Positions 25,876 through 35,461 of a stretch of DNA of 35,461 nt are shown here, one piece after another; the first letter of the stretch is position 1; every line of letters starts with the position of its first letter. Source of the DNA: Candidatus Gastranaerophilales bacterium (GTDB lineage: Bacteria; Cyanobacteriota; Vampirovibrionia; Gastranaerophilales; Gastranaerophilaceae); contig CALUSA010000013.1 of the NCBI GenBank assembly GCA_944323275.1, forward strand, positions 1 to 35,461. Reading direction: 5' to 3'. The notes beneath the pieces were generated by a model. The model did not search any database. It was not told the DNA's origin and saw only the letters and a program-made list of their open reading frames with translations. The position numbers and the translations under genes are program-made.

Positions 25876-27105
25876 TCAAATTTTTCTAAATATCAAAGAG
25901 GTGTTAATTCCCCCGAAGGCAAAGTTATTTGACATAACCGTATCTGTTAATATTTTCTGACCGCCTTGCTTATGCATTATGTAACCAAGCGGAGCGCATT
26001 CACTGTCGACATTATCAAGATTTAAAGTCGGACAAAACCAGCCGTTGTTCATCATTTCGATAGACAGAATTGCCTCTATGGCACCGCAGGCACCGAGAGT
26101 GTGACCTGTATAACTTTTGATAGAACTGATTGGAACGTTCCTTTTAAATACCTCGTATGTAGCAATACTTTCGGCAATATCACCGCTGTGAGTCGCAGTA
26201 CCGTGGGCATTTATATATCCGATTTCATCAGGACTTATACAAGCATCTTTTAATGCTCTTTTTAATGCGCCGCCCATTGTTTCATGGTTAGGATTGGTTA
26301 TGTGTGTTCCGTCAGTTGTTGTACCAAAACCTATAACCTCGGCATATATTTTTGCGCTGCGTTTTTTTGCGTGTTCGTATTCTTCAAGTATCAAAGTACC
26401 GGCTCCCTCGCCTATAACAAGACCGTCACGGTCTTTATCAAAGGGTCTGGGGGTAATTTCGGGATGGTCATTTTTCTGGCTTGTTGCATACAGCGTATCA
26501 AAAACAGCAATTTGTGTAGGGTGCAATTCTTCCGCCCCGCCGGCTATCATAACTGTTTCATATCCGTTTTTAATTGTTTCATAAGCATAGCCTATCCCCA
26601 TGGAACCTGATGTACAGGCTGTTGAAGACGGAATAAGCCTTCCCCGGGTTTTAAAATACAATGAAATATTAACGCTCGTTGTCTGCGGCATCATTTTTAT
26701 ATAAGAACCGGAATTAATGCCTCTGACTCTTTTTTCAGCTTCCATTGTATAAAAATCTATTATGGAATCTAAAGAACCGGAAGAAGAACCGTAGCTTACC
26801 CCTGTATTTTCAGACGAAATAATTTCCTGTCCGAGAAGCCCCGCATCTTCAAGTGCCTGTTCACTGACAACAGTACTCATCAATGCAACACGCCCCATAG
26901 TTCTTATTACCTTGCGTGTAAAATGTTCAGGTACTGCAAAATCGTGTACTTTCGAGCATAACTTCGCATTAAGGTGCTGATAAACTTCATAAGACGGTTC
27001 ATATTCGATACAATTTTTTAAAACTTTAAGCCTCTCATAAGCATTTTTTACGCTGCAGCCGAGAGGACTGGCAAGTGCCATTCCGGTAACAACAACCCTT
27101 TTCAA
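25876..27105 (-). CDS. Beta-ketoacyl-ACP synthase (FabF/ApeR-like)
   Basis: This condensing enzyme extends acyl-ACP chains with malonyl-ACP. The 409 residues have the complete Cys-His-His triad: Cys164 in STACTSGS, His301 in INAHGTATHSGD and His335 in KSYTGHTLGACGA. The start is TTG at 27105, overlapping the ketoreductase stop as TTGA and backed by a perfect GGAGG 9 bases upstream. It is the third gene of the minus-strand ketosynthase operon. The position (KS after KR) is that of ApeR in aryl polyene clusters. A housekeeping FabF role is less likely given a fused KS-DH and a CLF-like gene next door, but cannot be excluded. Confidence 0.85.
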   Translation of the reverse strand: MKRVVVTGMALASPLGCSVKNAYERLKVLKNCIEYEPSYEVYQHLNAKLCSKVHDFAVPEHFTRKVIRTMGRVALMSTVVSEQALEDAGLLGQEIISSENTGVSYGSSSGSLDSIIDFYTMEAEKRVRGINSGSYIKMMPQTTSVNISLYFKTRGRLIPSSTACTSGSMGIGYAYETIKNGYETVMIAGGAEELHPTQIAVFDTLYATSQKNDHPEITPRPFDKDRDGLVIGEGAGTLILEEYEHAKKRSAKIYAEVIGFGTTTDGTHITNPNHETMGGALKRALKDACISPDEIGYINAHGTATHSGDIAESIATYEVFKRNVPISSIKSYTGHTLGACGAIEAILSIEMMNNGWFCPTLNLDNVDSECAPLGYIMHKQGGQKILTDTVMSNNFAFGGINTSLIFRKI

Positions 27106-27830
27106 CTGTAAAGACCTCCGTTTACCGAAATCACCTGTCCTGTAATATACGAAGCATCTTCACTCATAAGGTAATTTACAAGACTTGCAACTTCTCTGCA
27201 GGTGCCCATACGCCTCATCGGAATATGTTTTTTTACTTCATCAACAGGCAAATCTTTTGTCATATCTGATTCTATCACCCCGGGGGCAACACAGTTAACT
27301 GTTATTCCTCTTTTGGCAAGCTCAAGGCTCAAAGCTTTGGTAGCACCGATTATACCCGCTTTTGATGCACTGTAATTTACCTGCCCTCGATTTCCTCTTA
27401 AACCTGAAATTGATGACAAAGTTACGATTCTGCCTTTAATTCTTCCTTCTATCATCGGCATTACAACAGGTTTCAGCACATTATAAAAACTGCCGAGGTT
27501 TGTATCAATAACATTATCCCATTCACTTTCCGTCATTATAGGGAACACGTTATCCATGGCAATGCCGGCATTTAGCACAACACCGTAATAAATGCCGTTG
27601 TCTTCTATATCTTTACTTAAAGCTTCAAAACACTTTGCACGGTCTTTTACGTCAAATTGCAGAATTCTTGCCTTTTGACCGATAGTTTCAATTTGTTTTT
27701 GTATTTCTTGAGCTTTTTCAATATTGTTTCTGCAGTGCAAAACAATATCATAACCACAGTTTGCAAGATACAGAGCTATTTCTTTGCCTATACCTCTTGA
27801 AGAACCTGTTACAAGTATTTCTTTAGCCAT
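27102..27830 (-). CDS. 3-oxoacyl-ACP reductase (FabG/ApeQ-like)
   Basis: This short-chain dehydrogenase reduces beta-ketoacyl-ACP with NADPH. The 242 residues show the cofactor motif VTGSSRGIGKE (7-17), LNAGIAMDN (86-94) and the catalytic set Asn111, Ser140, Tyr153 and Lys157 (YSASK). GGGG lies before the ATG. It lies 35 bases after the fused ketosynthase-dehydratase gene and overlaps the next ketosynthase by 4 bases. The pathway is as for its neighbours: iterative polyene-type chain building, with ketoreduction followed by dehydration. Confidence 0.9.
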   Translation of the reverse strand: MAKEILVTGSSRGIGKEIALYLANCGYDIVLHCRNNIEKAQEIQKQIETIGQKARILQFDVKDRAKCFEALSKDIEDNGIYYGVVLNAGIAMDNVFPIMTESEWDNVIDTNLGSFYNVLKPVVMPMIEGRIKGRIVTLSSISGLRGNRGQVNYSASKAGIIGATKALSLELAKRGITVNCVAPGVIESDMTKDLPVDEVKKHIPMRRMGTCREVASLVNYLMSEDASYITGQVISVNGGLYS

Positions 27831-27865
27831 TTAATTCCCCTATAATTGCCGAGCAATAATCTTTA

Positions 27866-29479
27866 TTATAAATCAATTTCTGAAGTATTTATATCCTCGG
27901 GCTGGTATGCGTTAACCACAGCTTTAGCACATTCTACCCCATTATTATAGATAAAACACTCAAACGAAACAAGTTCATTGTCGCCAAAAACTTCACGAAC
28001 AACGACCTCATAGGTCTTTCCGTTTTCAAATTTTTCAAGACTGCAATTATATGAGCGGCTGCCGAGCAAAAAGCCTATTTTGGCTTCTCCGTCATTGCGT
28101 TTGAAATACGAATAACACCCGATAGTCTGTGCCATAAACTCAATACCGGCAAGCGGAGAAACACCGTCAATCACAGCATCGTAGAAAACTTTATCTTTAT
28201 TAATTTCAACAAGTGTTTTTACATAGTTTTCTTCAAGATTTACGTCTAACAGCTTATCAATAAGTATCATCGGCGCATCATGCGGCAAAATTTTTGACAG
28301 GTCTGTTTCTAGTGTAGAATTGAGATGTTCTGCTGTCTGCTTTTTCCCGAATATTATAACCGCATTAGACCCGCCGAACCCAAAGGCATTACACATAACA
28401 TATTTATTGTTTCGAGCCTTTTCGTTATGTTTTGCAGGTCTTATCACCGGAAGTGTGTCATCATAAACCCCGTCAAAATTATGAGGAATAAGCAATTTTT
28501 CTTTATTTATTTCATCATCAAGAAAAGCAAGGCAAAGTGCGCTTTCCACTCCGGATGATGCGCCGAGGCAATGACCGGTCAAAGATTTTGTAGAGCTGAC
28601 CGGCACTTTATCTTTAAATACCTTATACACGGCATTAGCTTCCATAATATCGTTTGATACAGTACCTGTGCCATGAAGGTTTATGTAATCAATATCCTCA
28701 GGTTTTAACACTGCCTGCTCAAGTGCCTGTGTAATAGCTGCCGCAGCTTGAGTACCATCGGGGTCAGGTGTTGCCCCGTGGTATGCGTCAGAGGTTTCTC
28801 CGATACCAAGTATTCTTATGCCTTTGTTCACATCTTTTTCCAGTATAAAAAGAGCCGCACCTTCTCCTATATTAATACCGTCCCTGTTCTTGGAAAACGG
28901 CTTGCAGTTTGATTGCGACATTACTTCAAGTGAGCTGAAGCCGAAAACAGGTACTTTAGATACTGAATCGGCAGCACCGCACAAAACAGCATCGCAAATT
29001 CCGTTTTCAAGAAGTTTTACGCCCGTTGAAAAAGCTTTTATCCCCGAGGTACAGGCTGTAGAAACACCGCTGCAATAGCTTTTAAGCCCGAGATGCTCCT
29101 TTAAAAATATTGCAGGCGAACCGATTTGTGAATGAAAAACCTCGTGGCTTATTTCATATTCATTTGCACCTGCATTTGTTGTTCCGATGACCACACCGAT
29201 TCTGTCTTTGCCGTATTTTTTAATAACAGTATCAATCTCATTTTGTATTGCGTTGCAGCAATGCAAAAGCAGGGCATTTGTTCTTGTATCAAATTTCGCT
29301 TCTTCAATTTTGGGAAGCTCTGCGTCAACTTTGCCCAGATAAAGTTTTTTACCTTTTATAATATTTTCATCAGGCGTAAAAAAATTTTTGCCCGCCAAAA
29401 GCGAGTTTTCAAAAATTTCTTTTACGTTTGTGCCAAGGTCACAAATTGCACTGTATGATGTGATAGAAATATTTGCCAT
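27866..29479 (-). CDS. Fused beta-ketoacyl synthase-dehydratase (ApeO-ApeP-like)
   Basis: The 537 residues join two enzymes. Residues 1-380 are a condensing enzyme with Cys143 (STACTSGI), His269 (NLHGTGTVSND) and His303 (SLTGHCLGASSG). Residues about 395-527 are a hot-dog-fold dehydratase with LPHDAPMILID (His400) and GIEFMAQTIG (Glu447). The linker is about 15 residues, with no frameshift or stop. In aryl polyene clusters these are normally separate, adjacent genes (ApeO and ApeP). The start MANIS at 29479 is preferred to an in-frame TTG at 29551, which would overlap the divergent gene. No ribosome binding site precedes it and a -10 box lies 7 bases away, suggesting leaderless mRNA. Confidence 0.85.
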   Translation of the reverse strand: MANISITSYSAICDLGTNVKEIFENSLLAGKNFFTPDENIIKGKKLYLGKVDAELPKIEEAKFDTRTNALLLHCCNAIQNEIDTVIKKYGKDRIGVVIGTTNAGANEYEISHEVFHSQIGSPAIFLKEHLGLKSYCSGVSTACTSGIKAFSTGVKLLENGICDAVLCGAADSVSKVPVFGFSSLEVMSQSNCKPFSKNRDGINIGEGAALFILEKDVNKGIRILGIGETSDAYHGATPDPDGTQAAAAITQALEQAVLKPEDIDYINLHGTGTVSNDIMEANAVYKVFKDKVPVSSTKSLTGHCLGASSGVESALCLAFLDDEINKEKLLIPHNFDGVYDDTLPVIRPAKHNEKARNNKYVMCNAFGFGGSNAVIIFGKKQTAEHLNSTLETDLSKILPHDAPMILIDKLLDVNLEENYVKTLVEINKDKVFYDAVIDGVSPLAGIEFMAQTIGCYSYFKRNDGEAKIGFLLGSRSYNCSLEKFENGKTYEVVVREVFGDNELVSFECFIYNNGVECAKAVVNAYQPEDINTSEIDL

Positions 29480-29497
29480 ATTTGATATAATACTACC
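29480..29497. promoter_or_regulatory. 18-bp divergent promoter region
   Basis: The two start codons are separated by only 18 bp. TATAAT on the plus strand (29486-29491) ends 6 bases before the plus-strand ATG. TATTAT on the minus strand (29492-29487) ends 7 bases before the minus-strand ATG. Both genes lack a ribosome binding site. The simplest reading is two overlapping -10 boxes giving leaderless mRNAs in both directions. The -35 regions would lie inside the opposite gene and are poor. Confidence 0.45.
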
Positions 29498-30136
29498 ATG
29501 AATGAAAAAAGTATATTTTATATATCTAACATAAATTTTATCGACGGGCAAAACGCAGAAAGTCTTATTGATTTATCCTTTATGCCGCCTATGGCAAGAA
29601 GAAAGCTCAGCCTTGTGGATAAAGCTGCGCTCAGTGTTATGCACAAAGCATACAACGGCAATGAAGCAGAAATTGTTTTCGCTTCTCAATACGGAGAACT
29701 AGACAGGCTGGATAAAATAATCAGCCAGTACCAAGAGGACAATGAAGTTTCGCCCTTCACTTTCAGCACCTCAGTACACAACTGCGTAGCAGGACAGTTT
29801 TCTTTACTCAACAAAATTAAAAAGAGTTATAATGCACTTGCTGCAGGTGAAAACACCTTTAGTGCAGGGCTTTTGGAAAGCATTATGTGTGCACAATCAG
29901 GCGATAATGTTTTATACTGTTTTGCGGATTCCTACAAAAAATTAGAAGCATGCGGCTGTTTGATTTCTGCTACACCGACAAAAGACTCCCTAAAAATCGA
30001 ATTAGGCACAAACACTTGCGCTGTTGCCATTGACGGCGGAAACGAATTTGAAAACTTTAAAAGTTTTTGCGAAAACCAAACAGACAGCTTTTTAAGCAAT
30101 GATAAAGTATTTTGCATTGTCAGGAGCAACGGATAA
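29498..30136 (+). CDS. Truncated ketosynthase-like, chain-length-factor-like protein
   Basis: The 212 residues match the short ketosynthase-like family (Pfam Ketoacyl-synt_2 type) found in aryl polyene and related clusters. It corresponds to an N-terminal ketosynthase part only (SFMPPMARRKLSLVDKAAL, FASQYGELDRLDKII, SPFTFSTSVHNCVAG). The ketosynthase active-site Cys and both His motifs are missing, so it cannot condense by itself. In Ape systems the ApeC protein of this kind pairs with the ApeO ketosynthase. Here the partner would be the fused KS-DH encoded divergently 18 bp away. The acyltransferase gene follows with one base between. The role is inferred from family and context. Confidence 0.78.
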   Translation: MNEKSIFYISNINFIDGQNAESLIDLSFMPPMARRKLSLVDKAALSVMHKAYNGNEAEIVFASQYGELDRLDKIISQYQEDNEVSPFTFSTSVHNCVAGQFSLLNKIKKSYNALAAGENTFSAGLLESIMCAQSGDNVLYCFADSYKKLEACGCLISATPTKDSLKIELGTNTCAVAIDGGNEFENFKSFCENQTDSFLSNDKVFCIVRSNG

Positions 30137-30137
30137 A

Positions 30138-30881
30138 ATGAAAAAATTTTTCCGTGCATTTGTTGTAATTTTTTCTTTTGCATTTTTCGGTGCAGGGTCG
30201 CTTGTACTCGGACTTATTATAATACCGTTAATGAGTTTGTTCATAAAAAAAGAAAACAGACGCAAAGTTTTTTGCCGTGTTGTGCACAATCTATGGGCTT
30301 TTTTCAGCGATTTTATGCAAAAAACCGGCACAATAAAATTTAATGTAACAGACGAACAGAAAAAGTTTTTAACACAACTAAAAGGCAGCGTGATTGTGGC
30401 AAACCACCCCAGCTACATTGATATAGTACTTTTAATCGGCTTGATACCGGACACTTTATGTGTTGTAAAAAGCGAAATAAAGAAAAACCCGATTATGAGC
30501 AACATCGTAAAATCCACCTACCTTATAAACGATGAAAATAACGACACTCTTAAAGAAGAAGCAAAACAGGCATTGTCAGACGGCTACAATGTAATAATTT
30601 TTCCTACCGGTACACGCAGTGTTGAAGGAGAAGCCCTAAAACTCCACAGCGGGGCTGCTTCCGTTGCAATGTATGCAAATGTACCTATTGTACCAATTCA
30701 TATAACCTGTGATTACAAATTTCTGGCAAAGCACCAAAAAATATACGATGCAGGCGAAAAGCCCGTTAACTATTACCTGAAAATCAATGACACAATAAAC
30801 ATTGATGATTTTAAAACTCCGGATATCAATGATACAAAGCTTCGCCGCCGCATAAATTCCGTAATAAAAGATAGAATTTAA
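30138..30881 (+). CDS. 1-acylglycerol-3-phosphate-type acyltransferase
   Basis: The 247 residues are a PlsC-family acyltransferase. An N-terminal hydrophobic segment (about 7-35) is followed by ANHPSYID with the HX4D pair His90/Asp95 and by FPTGTRS (155-161). These are the catalytic and phosphate-binding motifs. ATG at 30138 is chosen over upstream codons: AGGAG lies 11 bases before it, and it follows the stop of the CLF-like gene by one base. Acyltransferases of this family are regular members of aryl polyene clusters, where they may attach the polyene acyl chain to a lipid. An ordinary phospholipid role is the alternative. Confidence 0.85.
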   Translation: MKKFFRAFVVIFSFAFFGAGSLVLGLIIIPLMSLFIKKENRRKVFCRVVHNLWAFFSDFMQKTGTIKFNVTDEQKKFLTQLKGSVIVANHPSYIDIVLLIGLIPDTLCVVKSEIKKNPIMSNIVKSTYLINDENNDTLKEEAKQALSDGYNVIIFPTGTRSVEGEALKLHSGAASVAMYANVPIVPIHITCDYKFLAKHQKIYDAGEKPVNYYLKINDTINIDDFKTPDINDTKLRRRINSVIKDRI

Positions 30882-30891
30882 AAACTCAATG

Positions 30892-30921: not shown

Positions 30922-33900
30922 ATGGAAAATAAAAAAGTATTTGCATTCGATTTAGGTAAAACAAGCATCGGCTATTGTGCACGCTGCGGACATGATATAC
31001 AAGAGGCGGAATCAGTAATTATTGATATTGATCACGCTGACGCTGCTTCATTAAGGGACAGAAGACGAATCTTCAGAACCCTTAATGCTCATAAAGCACG
31101 TGAAAAATATTTTGATAAAATATGGCGGGATTGCAATCTTGAGATTTTAAGCAAAGATGACAAAAAATTCACAAAAGAATTTGCCGCTAAAGGGGATTCT
31201 ACGATTTATAATTCCTGTCTTTTAAGAATCGCACTCCTTCAAGATAAAAAACTCGAAACCTGGCAGATATATAAAGCACTGCATAACGCAATGCAGCGCA
31301 GAGGGTATGACCCGAATCTAGCCTGGAAATCAGCCCAGACAGATGATGACAAAGAAAACCTCGAACTTGCTAAAAAATATACACAGGAAAACGGCGAAGA
31401 ACTAATTCAAAACGAAAACTACAAATACCCCTGCTACTATGATGCATTACGACTCGGCATGTGGTCTGAGGACACCCCGGACGAATTAAAACCGTTCAAC
31501 CCCCAGCAAAATTTCAACAAAGTACGTGCGACAAACTATGTAGCACCGAGAAACCTTGTCGAAAAAGAATTAACCGCTCTTTGGACAAATGCGCAAAAAC
31601 AATTGCCGGAATTAAACAAATATACTCCGGAAGAATTTTTGTACGGTGAATACAGAGAAGCCTACGGCTCTTATGTAAACCCTGATTACCGAAAATATCT
31701 CGGCAGTGAGCATGATTGGCAGGGTGTGTTAGGGCAGAAAATTCCGAGATTCGACAACAGAATTATCAGCAAATGCAAACTTCTGCCTAAAAGAAATGTT
31801 TGCAAAGCAAATACTCTCGAAAACGTTACTCTGGTGCTCTTGTTAAAATTAAAAAATTTGAGAATCACAAACGGCAGCGGTGATAAAGTCAGACTCAGCC
31901 CGTATGATATAAATACAATTTATCAAAACTGGCTTGTTAAAACAGAAGGCAGAGATAATAAACTCGATACAACAATTACTAAAAAAGAAATTGAAGACGT
32001 AATCGGACAGAAAATTATAGACAAAATTGAACCGATGAAAGCTGATATCAGCGGGCGTTCGTCTTTTTGCCGCAGGGCATGCCTGATTATGACAGACATA
32101 ATCCTCTCGGGCGAATTGTATCCTCAAAATATGAAGGTTTCAAAATACATAGACCCGCAAGACACAAAAGACGGAATAACGAAAGAAGAAATCCGTACAA
32201 TGCTATCTAAAATAGGGGACTGGAATAATCTCTATATACCTGACAACAGGAACGAAAATGCGGCTGTCGGAGAAAACACAAGAGAAAAAACAGATCTAAT
32301 GATAGGCGGTATAACCAATCCTGTTGTAAGAAACCGTCTGCAAATTTTCAGAGATTTGCTGTTCTATCTGGCAGGCAAATACGGAAAACCAGACGAAGTT
32401 ATCTTTGAATTTGTAAGAGAAGGTGCGGATAACTCACTGTTTGGCAGAATCAAAGCCCAGAGTGCCGAATCTTATATGAAAAATCAGGAAAAAGAAAACA
32501 ACCAGATAAAACAGGAACTTATTGACGCAAACGCTTTGAGTCCGACTAATTTTGAAAAAGCAAAACTTTTAAAAATTCAAGGCGGGAAATGTATCTACAG
32601 CGGGCAGCCTATTGCAATTTCCGACTTTGATAAATGCGAGATTGACCACATTTATCCACGAACAATGGGCGGCAATGATGCATTATATAACAAAGTGCTC
32701 TGTTTCAGGGCAGAGAACCAGAAAAAACAGGGACGAACTCCTTATGAATGGCTTTCCAAAGACAAGGAAACCTGGGCAAATTATGTTAACAGGCTTAACG
32801 ACATAAAAAAACAGCTCGGTAAGAAAAAATACGAACTGTTAACAAGCAAACCGCAAGATTGTGAAAAACTTATTGAAAGTTATAACGGGCTTGCAGAAAC
32901 AAGCCATATTGCCAAAATTGCACAGCAAATTACAGCATTTACTTTCGGCTGGGGCTTGCAGGTGGAAGGCGAAAGCAGACATATCTATGTAAATAACGGT
33001 GCTTCCACTTTTGCAATCCGAAAAAGATACGGGCTTAATGCAATACTCGGCGATGCTGAAAAGAAAAACCGCCAGAACGATAAACACCACGCTCTCGATG
33101 CTATTTGTATAAGCTATGCAAGAGAATTTAAATACGACAAAACTCTGAACAAAGACGTTATAGAAGGCTTTAACCCTGATGTTATAAAAAAGGTTATAGA
33201 CGGCATAATACCTTATCCTTATGCAAATAAAAAAGCCTTAAAAAGCAACACAAGACCGCTTGAAACAATATACGGAAAACGAATAATCAACGGCAAAGCC
33301 TGTATAACAAACAGGGTTACACTGGAAACGCTTGAACCCAAAGACAAAAAGGTAAGAAATATAGTCGATGAAGTTATAAAAACAGACCTCTTAAACAAGC
33401 TCGAACAAAAACCTTCAACGGATGAGTGGTATAACTACCTTAAAGACTATATCCACCCCAAAAAGAAAACAAAAGTAAAAAAAGTTATGATTGTTGTTTC
33501 CGAAGGTACGCTTGAGCAAGACTCAAACGGACGTGACAGAATCGGTGAATACTGCGACTACGGAACAAAAGGAACTAAGGGACAGTTTAAATGCTCCAAA
33601 GGACATAAAGGGCAAATACTATACTACAACGACAAAGGTGCTGTAAAAGTCATGCCCGTGTATTCCAACAAAAAGACACAGGAAGTAAGAGATAAACTCC
33701 TTGATATGGGCTGCAAACTGTACGCAGGCGGTCAAATGTTCTACTCAGGCTGCCTTGTTGATATCCCTAACGACTTTAAAGCCGGCGCAGCTACACATCC
33801 GGCAGGTGTGTACAAATTGAGAACGATAAAATCAAAAGGTGAAGTAAAGCTCGAAAATAACAACGGTATCGAAATTGATTCGAGTGTAAAAAACCTTACT

Positions 33901-33967: not shown

Positions 33968-34915
33968 ATGAGCTATCACGTTGTGCACATCACAACACCC
34001 GATTGTTACCTCTCTGTTGAGAGGGGGTTGTTGTTTTGTAAAAATAAAGAAGGCGAAATAAAATCAATTGCCTTAGCGGATATACGTGCCGTTATTGTTG
34101 CAGCGCAGGGCATTGCATTTTCCAACAACTGTTTGTCACGGCTTTTAGAAAATAACGTGGTTATACTGCACTGCAACACTTCATACCGTCCGGTTGGCTG
34201 GAGTGTACCTTTAGAAAGGATTGTACGCCCTAAAGTTTTTTATTGCCAGATAGAACAAAACATAGATTTTGAAACTAAGTTGTGGAAAAAGATACTGCTC
34301 GCTAAAGTAACAAATCAGGCAAAAAATCTTGACCTTATCGGCTGCAGCGAACATAACCTGTATAACCTGATAAACCGTCCGCTTATGAATGAAGCAAACA
34401 TAGCAAAACAGTACTGGCAGAATTATTTTGTCGAAATCGGCAACCCTATGAAAAGAGAACATCTGGCAGCGGAAACTTTTGAAAACGGCTGTCTTAATTA
34501 CGGCTATGCCGTAATAAATTCTCTGGTTTACCGCTCTGTTATAGTTCACGGTCTTATTGCGAGCCTCGGTATTCACCACAAAGGCAAATACAAAAGCACG
34601 CCGCTTGTTTATGACTTAATGGAGCCGTACAGGGCTTTTATTGATTATTATTTTTATCAATTTGTACAGGAGTGCGAATTTGATTACGAACAGGAAAATT
34701 ACAAAGCCTGGTTTAAATACCTGTCAGAATGTATAAAAAATTACAGAATAAAAATAGATAACATAAGCTACAAGCTCATTGATACAATAGATATTTACGT
34801 TGAAAAAATAGTTGATGCTTATACAAAATTTGATTGTTCAAAGATATTTTTGCCTGACATAAACGAACAATATCTGCACATAGACAAACACAGGAACCGG
34901 GAATATGAGGAGTAA
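33968..34915 (+). CDS. cas1: CRISPR integrase Cas1
   Basis: Cas1 is the integrase subunit that, with Cas2, inserts new spacers at the leader end of the array. The 315 residues have the N-terminal beta domain and the catalytic helical domain. Glu142 lies in NEANIAKQYW, His203/His204 in LGIHHKGKYKS and Asp216/Glu219 in LVYDLMEPYR, as expected of type II Cas1. It starts 37 bases after cas9 with a weak ribosome binding site, and overlaps cas2 by 11 bases. No cas4 or csn2 follows, which defines II-C. Confidence 0.95.
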   Translation: MSYHVVHITTPDCYLSVERGLLFCKNKEGEIKSIALADIRAVIVAAQGIAFSNNCLSRLLENNVVILHCNTSYRPVGWSVPLERIVRPKVFYCQIEQNIDFETKLWKKILLAKVTNQAKNLDLIGCSEHNLYNLINRPLMNEANIAKQYWQNYFVEIGNPMKREHLAAETFENGCLNYGYAVINSLVYRSVIVHGLIASLGIHHKGKYKSTPLVYDLMEPYRAFIDYYFYQFVQECEFDYEQENYKAWFKYLSECIKNYRIKIDNISYKLIDTIDIYVEKIVDAYTKFDCSKIFLPDINEQYLHIDKHRNREYEE

Positions 34916-35252
34916 ATATCGTATGGGCTGGCTTGTTGTATGTTTTGATTTGCCTGTTGTGGAAAAAGAAAACCAGAGGCAGGCAAATGCGTTCAGAAAA
35001 TCTTTGTTGAATCAGGGATATTTTATGCTGCAAAACTCAATATATGTAAGGTCTTGCGTAACTTATGACAAAACAGAACAGCACATAAGAAATTTAAAAC
35101 TCATAGCACCCTCAACAGGTTCAATAGTGGCTTTTTATATAACGGACAAACAGTGGGGGCTTGCTGTGTGTATAGACAAGTATGATTATAAACAATCAAA
35201 ATACAAGAAAAAAGCAGGCGAAAATGTAGAAAAACAGATGACATTCTGGTAA
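34905..35252 (+). CDS. cas2: CRISPR adaptation protein Cas2
   Basis: Cas2 is the dimeric core of the Cas1-Cas2 spacer integration complex. The 115 residues have the ferredoxin-like fold with VVCFDLPVVEKENQRQA (Asp15) near the start and GYFMLQNSIYVRSC in the second strand. The start at 34905 gives MRSKYRMGW, matching the usual type II Cas2 N-terminus (short basic lead, then Met and the strand). An internal ATG at 34923 is the alternative. The end of cas1 overlaps it. The stop at 35252 is followed by the tracrRNA region on the other strand. Confidence 0.94.
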   Translation: MRSKYRMGWLVVCFDLPVVEKENQRQANAFRKSLLNQGYFMLQNSIYVRSCVTYDKTEQHIRNLKLIAPSTGSIVAFYITDKQWGLAVCIDKYDYKQSKYKKKAGENVEKQMTFW

Positions 35253-35259
35253 TTTTAAG

Positions 35260-35382
35260 GTAGAATATCATTGTAGCGTATTTTGTTGAGGTTTAGAGAA
35301 TGAGTCTATTCGTACAATTAAGCAGAGGAGCAAACTATTCTCTTGTCAATTATGATTGGTCTCTTAACTTAAAATATATTAC
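35260..35382 (-). ncRNA. tracrRNA candidate
   Basis: Read on the minus strand from about 35382, the RNA begins with an anti-repeat (35382-35347). Its first part pairs with the crRNA form of the repeat at 35422-35457 over 22 consecutive positions (two G-U). An internal bulge (CC against U) follows, then a lower stem of about 9 positions with one mismatch, the typical bulged repeat:anti-repeat duplex of Cas9. Next comes a 12-bp stem with one bulged C (35343-35332 with 35307-35295). A promoter sits just upstream. The 3' end is uncertain: I see no U-run terminator before cas2, and the end given is approximate. Confidence 0.72.
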
Positions 35383-35388
35383 GTTTGT

Positions 35389-35417
35389 ATTATATATCAT
35401 TTATTCAATTTTGTATA
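35389..35417 (-). promoter_or_regulatory. Promoter of the tracrRNA
   Basis: On the minus strand TATACA (35417-35412) and a perfect TATAAT (35394-35389) are separated by 17 bp. Transcription would start about 35382, exactly where the anti-repeat begins, which supports both calls. Confidence 0.55.
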
Positions 35418-35421
35418 TCCT

Positions 35422-35457
35422 ATTATAACATATTTTAAATTAAGAGAAAATCAAAAC
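35422..35457 (-). CRISPR. Terminal CRISPR repeat (36 nt) at the window edge
   Basis: The 36 bases 35422-35457 read, on the minus strand, from GTTTTGATTTTC to ATGTTATAAT. Length, the GTTTT start and the T/A-rich end match type II-C repeats such as those of Campylobacter (starting GTTTTAG, ending AAAAT). Its pairing with the tracrRNA candidate supports the identity. The end TGTTATAAT (35430-35422) is a perfect extended -10 box, as in Neisseria repeats. Only four bases follow in the window, so spacers and further repeats are not seen. By orientation this is the repeat at the cas-proximal, 3' end of the crRNA transcript. Confidence 0.7.
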
Positions 35458-35461
35458 AAAT

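Follow-up and report, generated by a model that had tools for sequence, protein, structure and literature searches.

The stretch of DNA analysed here (the window, 35,461 nucleotides) corresponds to contig C13 of a 2.27-Mb draft genome and carries a cas9-cas1-cas2 operon close to its right end. This layout raises the question of which RNAs guide the encoded Cas9, and from which strand they are read. A preliminary description, made from the window, had proposed that the bases following cas2 hold a tracrRNA gene and a CRISPR repeat on the minus strand. The analyses below indicate, with a probability of about 0.93, that a type II CRISPR-Cas9 system of II-C layout has its guide-RNA end in this region. 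The cas9-cas1-cas2 genes would occupy the plus strand; convergent with them, the minus strand would hold the array, with its 31 repeats and 30 spacers, and behind it the tracrRNA gene (Table 1).

Table 1. Features of the CRISPR-Cas locus at the right end of the window
Feature	Coordinates	Strand	Remarks
cas9, ~1002 aa	30922-33930	+	Full-length NF049971 match; ORF opens at 30889, likely start ATG at 30922
cas1	33968-34915	+	TIGR03639 (cas1_NMENI), 162.7 bits, cut-off 120
cas2	34905-35252	+	TIGR01573, 58.5 bits, cut-off 24.5
tracrRNA	35290-35382	-	Anti-repeat plus covarying hairpin; start deduced from promoter
tracrRNA 3' hairpin (AGAGAATAGTTTG...GACTCATTCTCT)	35295-35343	-	Covarying helix
Anti-repeat of tracrRNA	35349-35382	-	23 + 8 pairs with repeat, -27.9 kcal/mol; covariation in 24 loci
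-10 box TATAAT, putative tracrRNA promoter	35389-35394	-	17 nt from TATACA in 23/25 loci
Leader motif AGGATATACAA	35411-35421	-	Abuts first repeat, overlaps -35 box; invariant in 25/25 loci
-35 box TATACA, putative tracrRNA promoter	35412-35417	-	Invariant in 25 loci
Extended -10 element TGTTATAAT	35422-35430	-	Repeat 3' end; repeats of 24/25 loci
First (newest) repeat, GTTTTGATTTTCTCTTAATTTAAAATATGTTATAAT in crRNA sense	35422-35457	-	First of 31 repeats, continuing into contig C26
Spacer 1, first 4 bases (window sense)	35458-35461	-	Continues in contig C26 (C26:74-103)

The cas genes and the subtype of the system

The Cas9 sequence matches the NCBIfam model NF049971, named 'Cas9d', with 1018 bits over residues 17-1006 (cut-off 375), and also TIGR01865. 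The RuvC residues D10, E496, H723 and D726 and the HNH residues D575 and H576 are invariant in 22 homologues, and most of the named relatives belong to Candidatus Gastranaerophilales MAGs, several of which were recovered from the guts and rumens of animals, so that the host is very probably a member of this order. We found neither experimental work on the NF049971 family nor papers on Gastranaerophilales Cas9 in the open-access papers searched. The gene content is limited to cas9, cas1 and cas2, without csn2, and the neighbours are acyltransferase and ketoacyl-synthase genes. Beside cas9, positions 25876-30881 hold an apparent fatty-acid or aryl-polyene type synthesis cluster with ketoacyl synthases, an ApeP-like dehydratase, a reductase and an acyltransferase.

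Intact RuvC/HNH residues, an anti-repeat pairing with the array repeats and a 3' PAM place the system in type II. Although the name of the NF049971 model points to II-D, II-D loci have cas1, cas2 and cas4 in common (PMC12669027) and Cas9d enzymes contain zinc ribbons (PMC9755519). The genes flanking cas9, cas1 and cas2 do not include a cas4, and no conserved CxxC pairs were found in the invariant columns of the 22 homologues. Since neither cas4 nor zinc ribbons were seen, we did not file the locus as II-D; the NCBI label 'Cas9d' thus covers loci that lack both of these II-D hallmarks. The best Cas9 sequence matches are II-C proteins (about 98-109 bits, versus at most 49 for II-D), and the similarity to solved Cas9s lies mainly in the RuvC/HNH part. 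The structure was left out of the subtype assignment because the predicted model is moderate (pLDDT 75.5, pTM 0.37) and II-A, II-C and II-D Cas9s score alike against it. Two traits of II-C systems, a promoter sequence at the repeat 3' end and an oldest repeat with changes within its first 15 nt, were both found, the former by sequence in 24/25 loci and the latter in the 7 usable loci. Judged by gene content, repeat promoters and polarity, the system apparently works like II-C.

The array continues on a second contig

The 36-nt repeat that had been placed at 35422-35457 is present at exactly these coordinates, and further copies, expected every ~66 bases past 35461, were found on contig C26 (locus L009) of the same genome. 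The final 77 bases of C13 recur without change as C26:1-77, and the two contigs were joined on the basis of this assembly overlap. C26 contains 30 further copies of the 36-mer, 29 of them identical, with a period of 65-66 bp. The whole array therefore comprises 31 repeats, of which 30 are identical and repeat 31 carries 5 changes, separated by 30 spacers of 29 or 30 nt. The preliminary description was right in calling 35422-35457 a CRISPR repeat at the window edge, but this terminal repeat is the newest one, at the acquisition end, and not the old end of the array. The assembly break falls exactly at this acquisition end, 4 bases into spacer 1 (overlap of window 35385-35461 with C26:1-77), and differences in the newest spacers between strains could be its cause. 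In contig C56, 22 nt match the repeat, but this site resembles an ordinary promoter and was discarded.

Beyond repeat 31, C26 continues with a 267-bp stretch and then a remnant repeat. This stretch, between the old array end and the remnant (~2048-2317), contains an unannotated small-RNA-like gene, for which a sigma-70-like promoter (TTGATA-16-TATACT) and a strong terminator hairpin can be recognised. Two loci of the same genus (L041, L042) share the gene with 96-97% conservation, and none of the other loci has it. Comparison of the far array flank with Rfam gave nothing above chance, and the small-RNA-like gene had no Rfam match.

A predicted tracrRNA gene between cas2 and the first repeat

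The repeat and the anti-repeat pair over 23 consecutive positions, counting G-U; after a 1x2 internal loop, 8 of the next 9 positions pair and one is a U-U mismatch, so that the pairing proposed earlier (22 pairs, a bulge and about 9 more) was essentially correct. The duplex reaches -27.9 kcal/mol, versus a mean of -10.2 for the best site (sd 2.3, minimum -19.9) when the 172 intergenic bases were dinucleotide-shuffled 1000 times. The hairpin that follows had been described as a 12-bp stem-loop; it does exist, but its stem has 13 pairs with one bulged base, plus inner pairs. We found no intrinsic terminator for the tracrRNA and no terminator-like site in the window, and the 3' end at 35290 is provisional. 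An Rfam scan of the locus gave nothing above chance.

In order to evaluate this structure, we searched a sample of 288 genomes of the same family and obtained 26 near full-length Cas9 relatives, own one included. Twenty-five loci, again with the own one, share cas9-cas1-cas2, then 168-233 bp between cas2 and repeat 1, then an array. We aligned 24 of these 25 loci over 49 pairs of the repeat/anti-repeat duplex and the hairpin: 95.5% of the cells are standard pairs, and 14 of the 49 pairs have changed on both sides. The main helix of the hairpin accounts for 15 pairs, with 8 changed on both sides and 91.9% of cells paired. When the partners were slid by 1-3 columns, only 35-40% remained paired, and none of 500 shuffles attained the observed covariation score. 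As the 24 loci are related, the covariation cells are not independent; despite this kinship, both controls agree in favour of the pairing. Permuting the repeats among loci never gave a total pairing energy as good (0/20,000), indicating that each anti-repeat prefers its own repeat.

The same layout with its own anti-repeat was also observed in wider relatives, namely Termititenax aidoneus (-43.1 kcal/mol), a cyanobacterial MAG (-29.2 kcal/mol) and a Verrucomicrobiota MAG (-22.4 kcal/mol). In the Cas9 loci L189, L191 and L192, no good anti-repeat was found between cas2 and the array; the general Cas9 model fits the two proteins that were scored (L189, L192) far better than NF049971 does. Some Gastranaerophilales (L189, L191) have a Cas9 of another family; their repeats read GTTATAGTTTCCTTTCGAAAGTATTTATTGTATAAT, and an anti-repeat is missing at this position. 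Two further genomes contain broken cas9 genes (G092:C5 and G106:C214) with in-frame stops and split matches, which are decaying copies of the same system. Spacers shared between loci, sought in order to time acquisition, were not found.

Promoters and leader

A TATACA-17-TATAAT promoter had been placed upstream of the anti-repeat, and these boxes are indeed found at 35417-35389 on the minus strand. In the window alone, 4 promoter-like sites were counted for 1.7 expected, which is not significant. This evidence being too weak, it was replaced by conservation across loci: the boxes and their spacing are kept in 23/25 loci, and the bases between them vary. The 11 bases of the AGGATATACAA leader do not vary in any of the 25 loci, whereas the adjoining 15 nt are variable. 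Such invariance exceeds what a -35 box needs, suggesting that the motif is probably an integration anchor as well. The TGTTATAAT promoter element is retained in most of the mutated old repeats.

Direction of transcription, PAM and targets

The 24-locus alignment contains 95 G-U but only 12 A-C wobble cells, indicating that the minus strand corresponds to the RNA, and the promoter boxes of both the leader and the repeat ends have this same orientation. Spacers were then compared with genomes of the same family, which gave 26 spacers with protospacers outside arrays; as many as 4 mismatches were accepted, and flanks from several genera were pooled. Read in crRNA sense, 23/26 protospacers are followed on their 3' side by NRNR and 16/26 by NRAR, versus 6/26 and 1/26 for the 5' flank. 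With a quarter chance per flank, 23/26 has a binomial probability of ~1e-11. The PAM therefore lies on the 3' side of the protospacer, as in type II CRISPR-Cas. G-U asymmetry, PAM side and promoter boxes agree with the crRNA orientation claimed earlier (minus strand, convergent with cas2). More generally, comparison with 24 other loci, together with the 3' PAM, supports the tracrRNA, its pairing, the crRNA strand and the convergence first put forward from a single sequence.

Own spacers 1 and 29 both have their targets on one contig of a sister genome of the same genus (G043:C7:1-40000, loci L195/L196). This contig encodes tail sheath, baseplate, portal and terminase proteins and thus carries a contractile-tailed prophage, and the newest spacer matches it with one mismatch and an acceptable PAM. 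The prophage also contains protospacers for spacer 7 of L044, spacer 11 of L045 and spacer 12 of L050, and is, by these matches, apparently a commonly targeted Gastranaerophilales phage lineage. At another locus (L106, G098:C17, ~45240-45336), the protospacers of L042 spacer 6 and L044 spacer 10 both fall in a 27-bp tandem repeat, though on opposite strands, and one spacer consequently has several adjacent targets. The spacers had no match in a public phage collection, and the stretch between cas2 and the leader had no relative there.

The predicted acquisition end lies on the tracrRNA side

Mutated repeats occur exclusively at the cas2-distal end of the arrays. In the 7 usable loci, the changes fall mainly in crRNA nt 1-15, the half that pairs with the tracrRNA, and the promoter half is retained. 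The same decay pattern has been described for the 'extra repeat' of type II-C arrays, whose mutation was proposed to silence a guide without a match (PMC12080349). In II-C systems, acquisition takes place at the 3' end and promoters are located in the repeats (PMC12638026; PMC8092290). The position of the mutated repeats and the nt 1-15 pattern place the predicted acquisition end on the tracrRNA side.

Proposed functioning and alternative explanations

As each repeat ends in an extended -10 promoter, crRNA synthesis most likely starts inside the array and would run towards cas2. The tracrRNA would be transcribed from its own promoter, within the 40 bases separating the first repeat from the anti-repeat, and would pair with the repeat part of the crRNA. 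The duplex, together with the 3' hairpin, would load Cas9, and the loaded enzyme would cut DNA flanked on its 3' side by NRNR, mostly NRAR. New spacers would be inserted where the AGGATATACAA leader meets the first repeat, and the leader would thereby double as the tracrRNA promoter region.

We considered whether the array could instead be read on the plus strand, from the cas2-side leader and in the direction of the cas genes. Its acquisition end does adjoin cas2, where most CRISPR types start transcription, and RNAs read from the plus strand would show some pairing too, the anti-repeat being an inverted copy of the repeat. However, this reading turns the 95 wobble cells into A-C mismatches and puts the PAM 5' of the protospacer, unlike Cas9, and for these two reasons we rejected it. 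It would moreover bring the hairpin before the anti-repeat and leave the tracrRNA promoter and the repeat -10 boxes facing the opposite way. Transcription of the array towards the leader is established for II-C systems (PMC8092290; PMC12638026). Plus-strand transcription is thus highly improbable, and we give just as little credit to the idea that the anti-repeat is a dead or regulatory (scaRNA-like) repeat copy and that the true tracrRNA is encoded elsewhere. The tracrRNA is located upstream of cas9 in the characterised II-C loci of C. cellulolyticum and EHCas9, and the existence of repeat-like sRNAs in addition to tracrRNA has been proposed (PMC6199352). Yet C. jejuni also has its tracrRNA just downstream of the array (PMC4607530), and neither a second Cas9 nor any other anti-repeat-like site was found in the genome, where a better partner for this Cas9 would have spoken against the assignment. 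Covariation and the conserved hairpin and promoter argue against a dead or regulatory copy. A regulatory role, with a long-form tracrRNA repressing the cas9 promoter, was also rejected because matches between leader and promoter are no longer than with shuffled leaders (8.3 vs 8.3).

Decay of the system into an inactive state is scarcely easier to accept. Some family members do have a broken cas9 (G092, G106), but none of the cas genes of the window is interrupted, Cas9 retains its catalytic residues and the array has 30 identical repeats; the prophage match of the newest spacer, with its acceptable PAM, also argues for activity. The minus-strand array with its adjoining tracrRNA thus remains the preferred reading.

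A natural single guide for the newest spacer?

No terminator separates the array from the tracrRNA gene, and a read-through transcript would consequently carry its parts in single-guide order: newest spacer, repeat 1, 40-nt leader loop, anti-repeat and tracrRNA hairpin. Folding in cis was predicted in 24/24 loci tested, with 14-23 upper-stem pairs, and the loop measures 40 nt in 23/24. Promoter spacing explains this fixed length equally well, and we regard a cis-made single-guide RNA for the newest spacer as an unlikely possibility. If it were true, the newest spacer, the one most needed in infection, would receive a pre-assembled guide. The location of the tracrRNA at the acquisition end makes such a natural single guide a testable question. 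The locus also provides all the parts for testing a compact (~1000 aa) Cas9 of uncultured gut Melainabacteria and their relatives, namely the crRNA direction, the tracrRNA, the repeat pairing and a short predicted PAM (NRAR).

Comparison with known systems

The locus resembles the II-D Cas9d systems MG34 and MG102 in the name of its NCBIfam model and in its short 3' PAM (PMC9755519, PMC12669027). As in the II-C system of C. cellulolyticum, the array would be transcribed against the cas genes, and an extended -10 at the repeat end is shared with both C. cellulolyticum and N. meningitidis; the C. cellulolyticum tracrRNA, however, lies upstream of the cas genes, and not between cas2 and the array as here (PMC7038990). 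Transcription from inside the array towards the variable (leader) end is also a feature of the Flavobacterium columnare II-C system, which differs by its PAM, NNNNNTAAA, and by a toxin-antitoxin pair in the locus (PMC8092290). The closest parallels are with C. jejuni II-C (PMC4607530), which likewise has cas9, cas1 and cas2 in one operon, 36-nt repeats whose 3' end holds a sigma-70 -10 element, and a tracrRNA that directly follows the array and has a -10 of its own; changes in the repeat are mirrored in the tracrRNA, the PAM is on the 3' side and the Cas9 is compact. In contrast to C. jejuni, the Cas9 studied here belongs to NF049971, its predicted PAM is NRAR and not that of C. jejuni, repeat and tracrRNA sequences are different and arrays reach ~45 repeats. 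A tracrRNA downstream of the array, promoters in the repeats and matched repeat/tracrRNA changes are therefore already known from C. jejuni.
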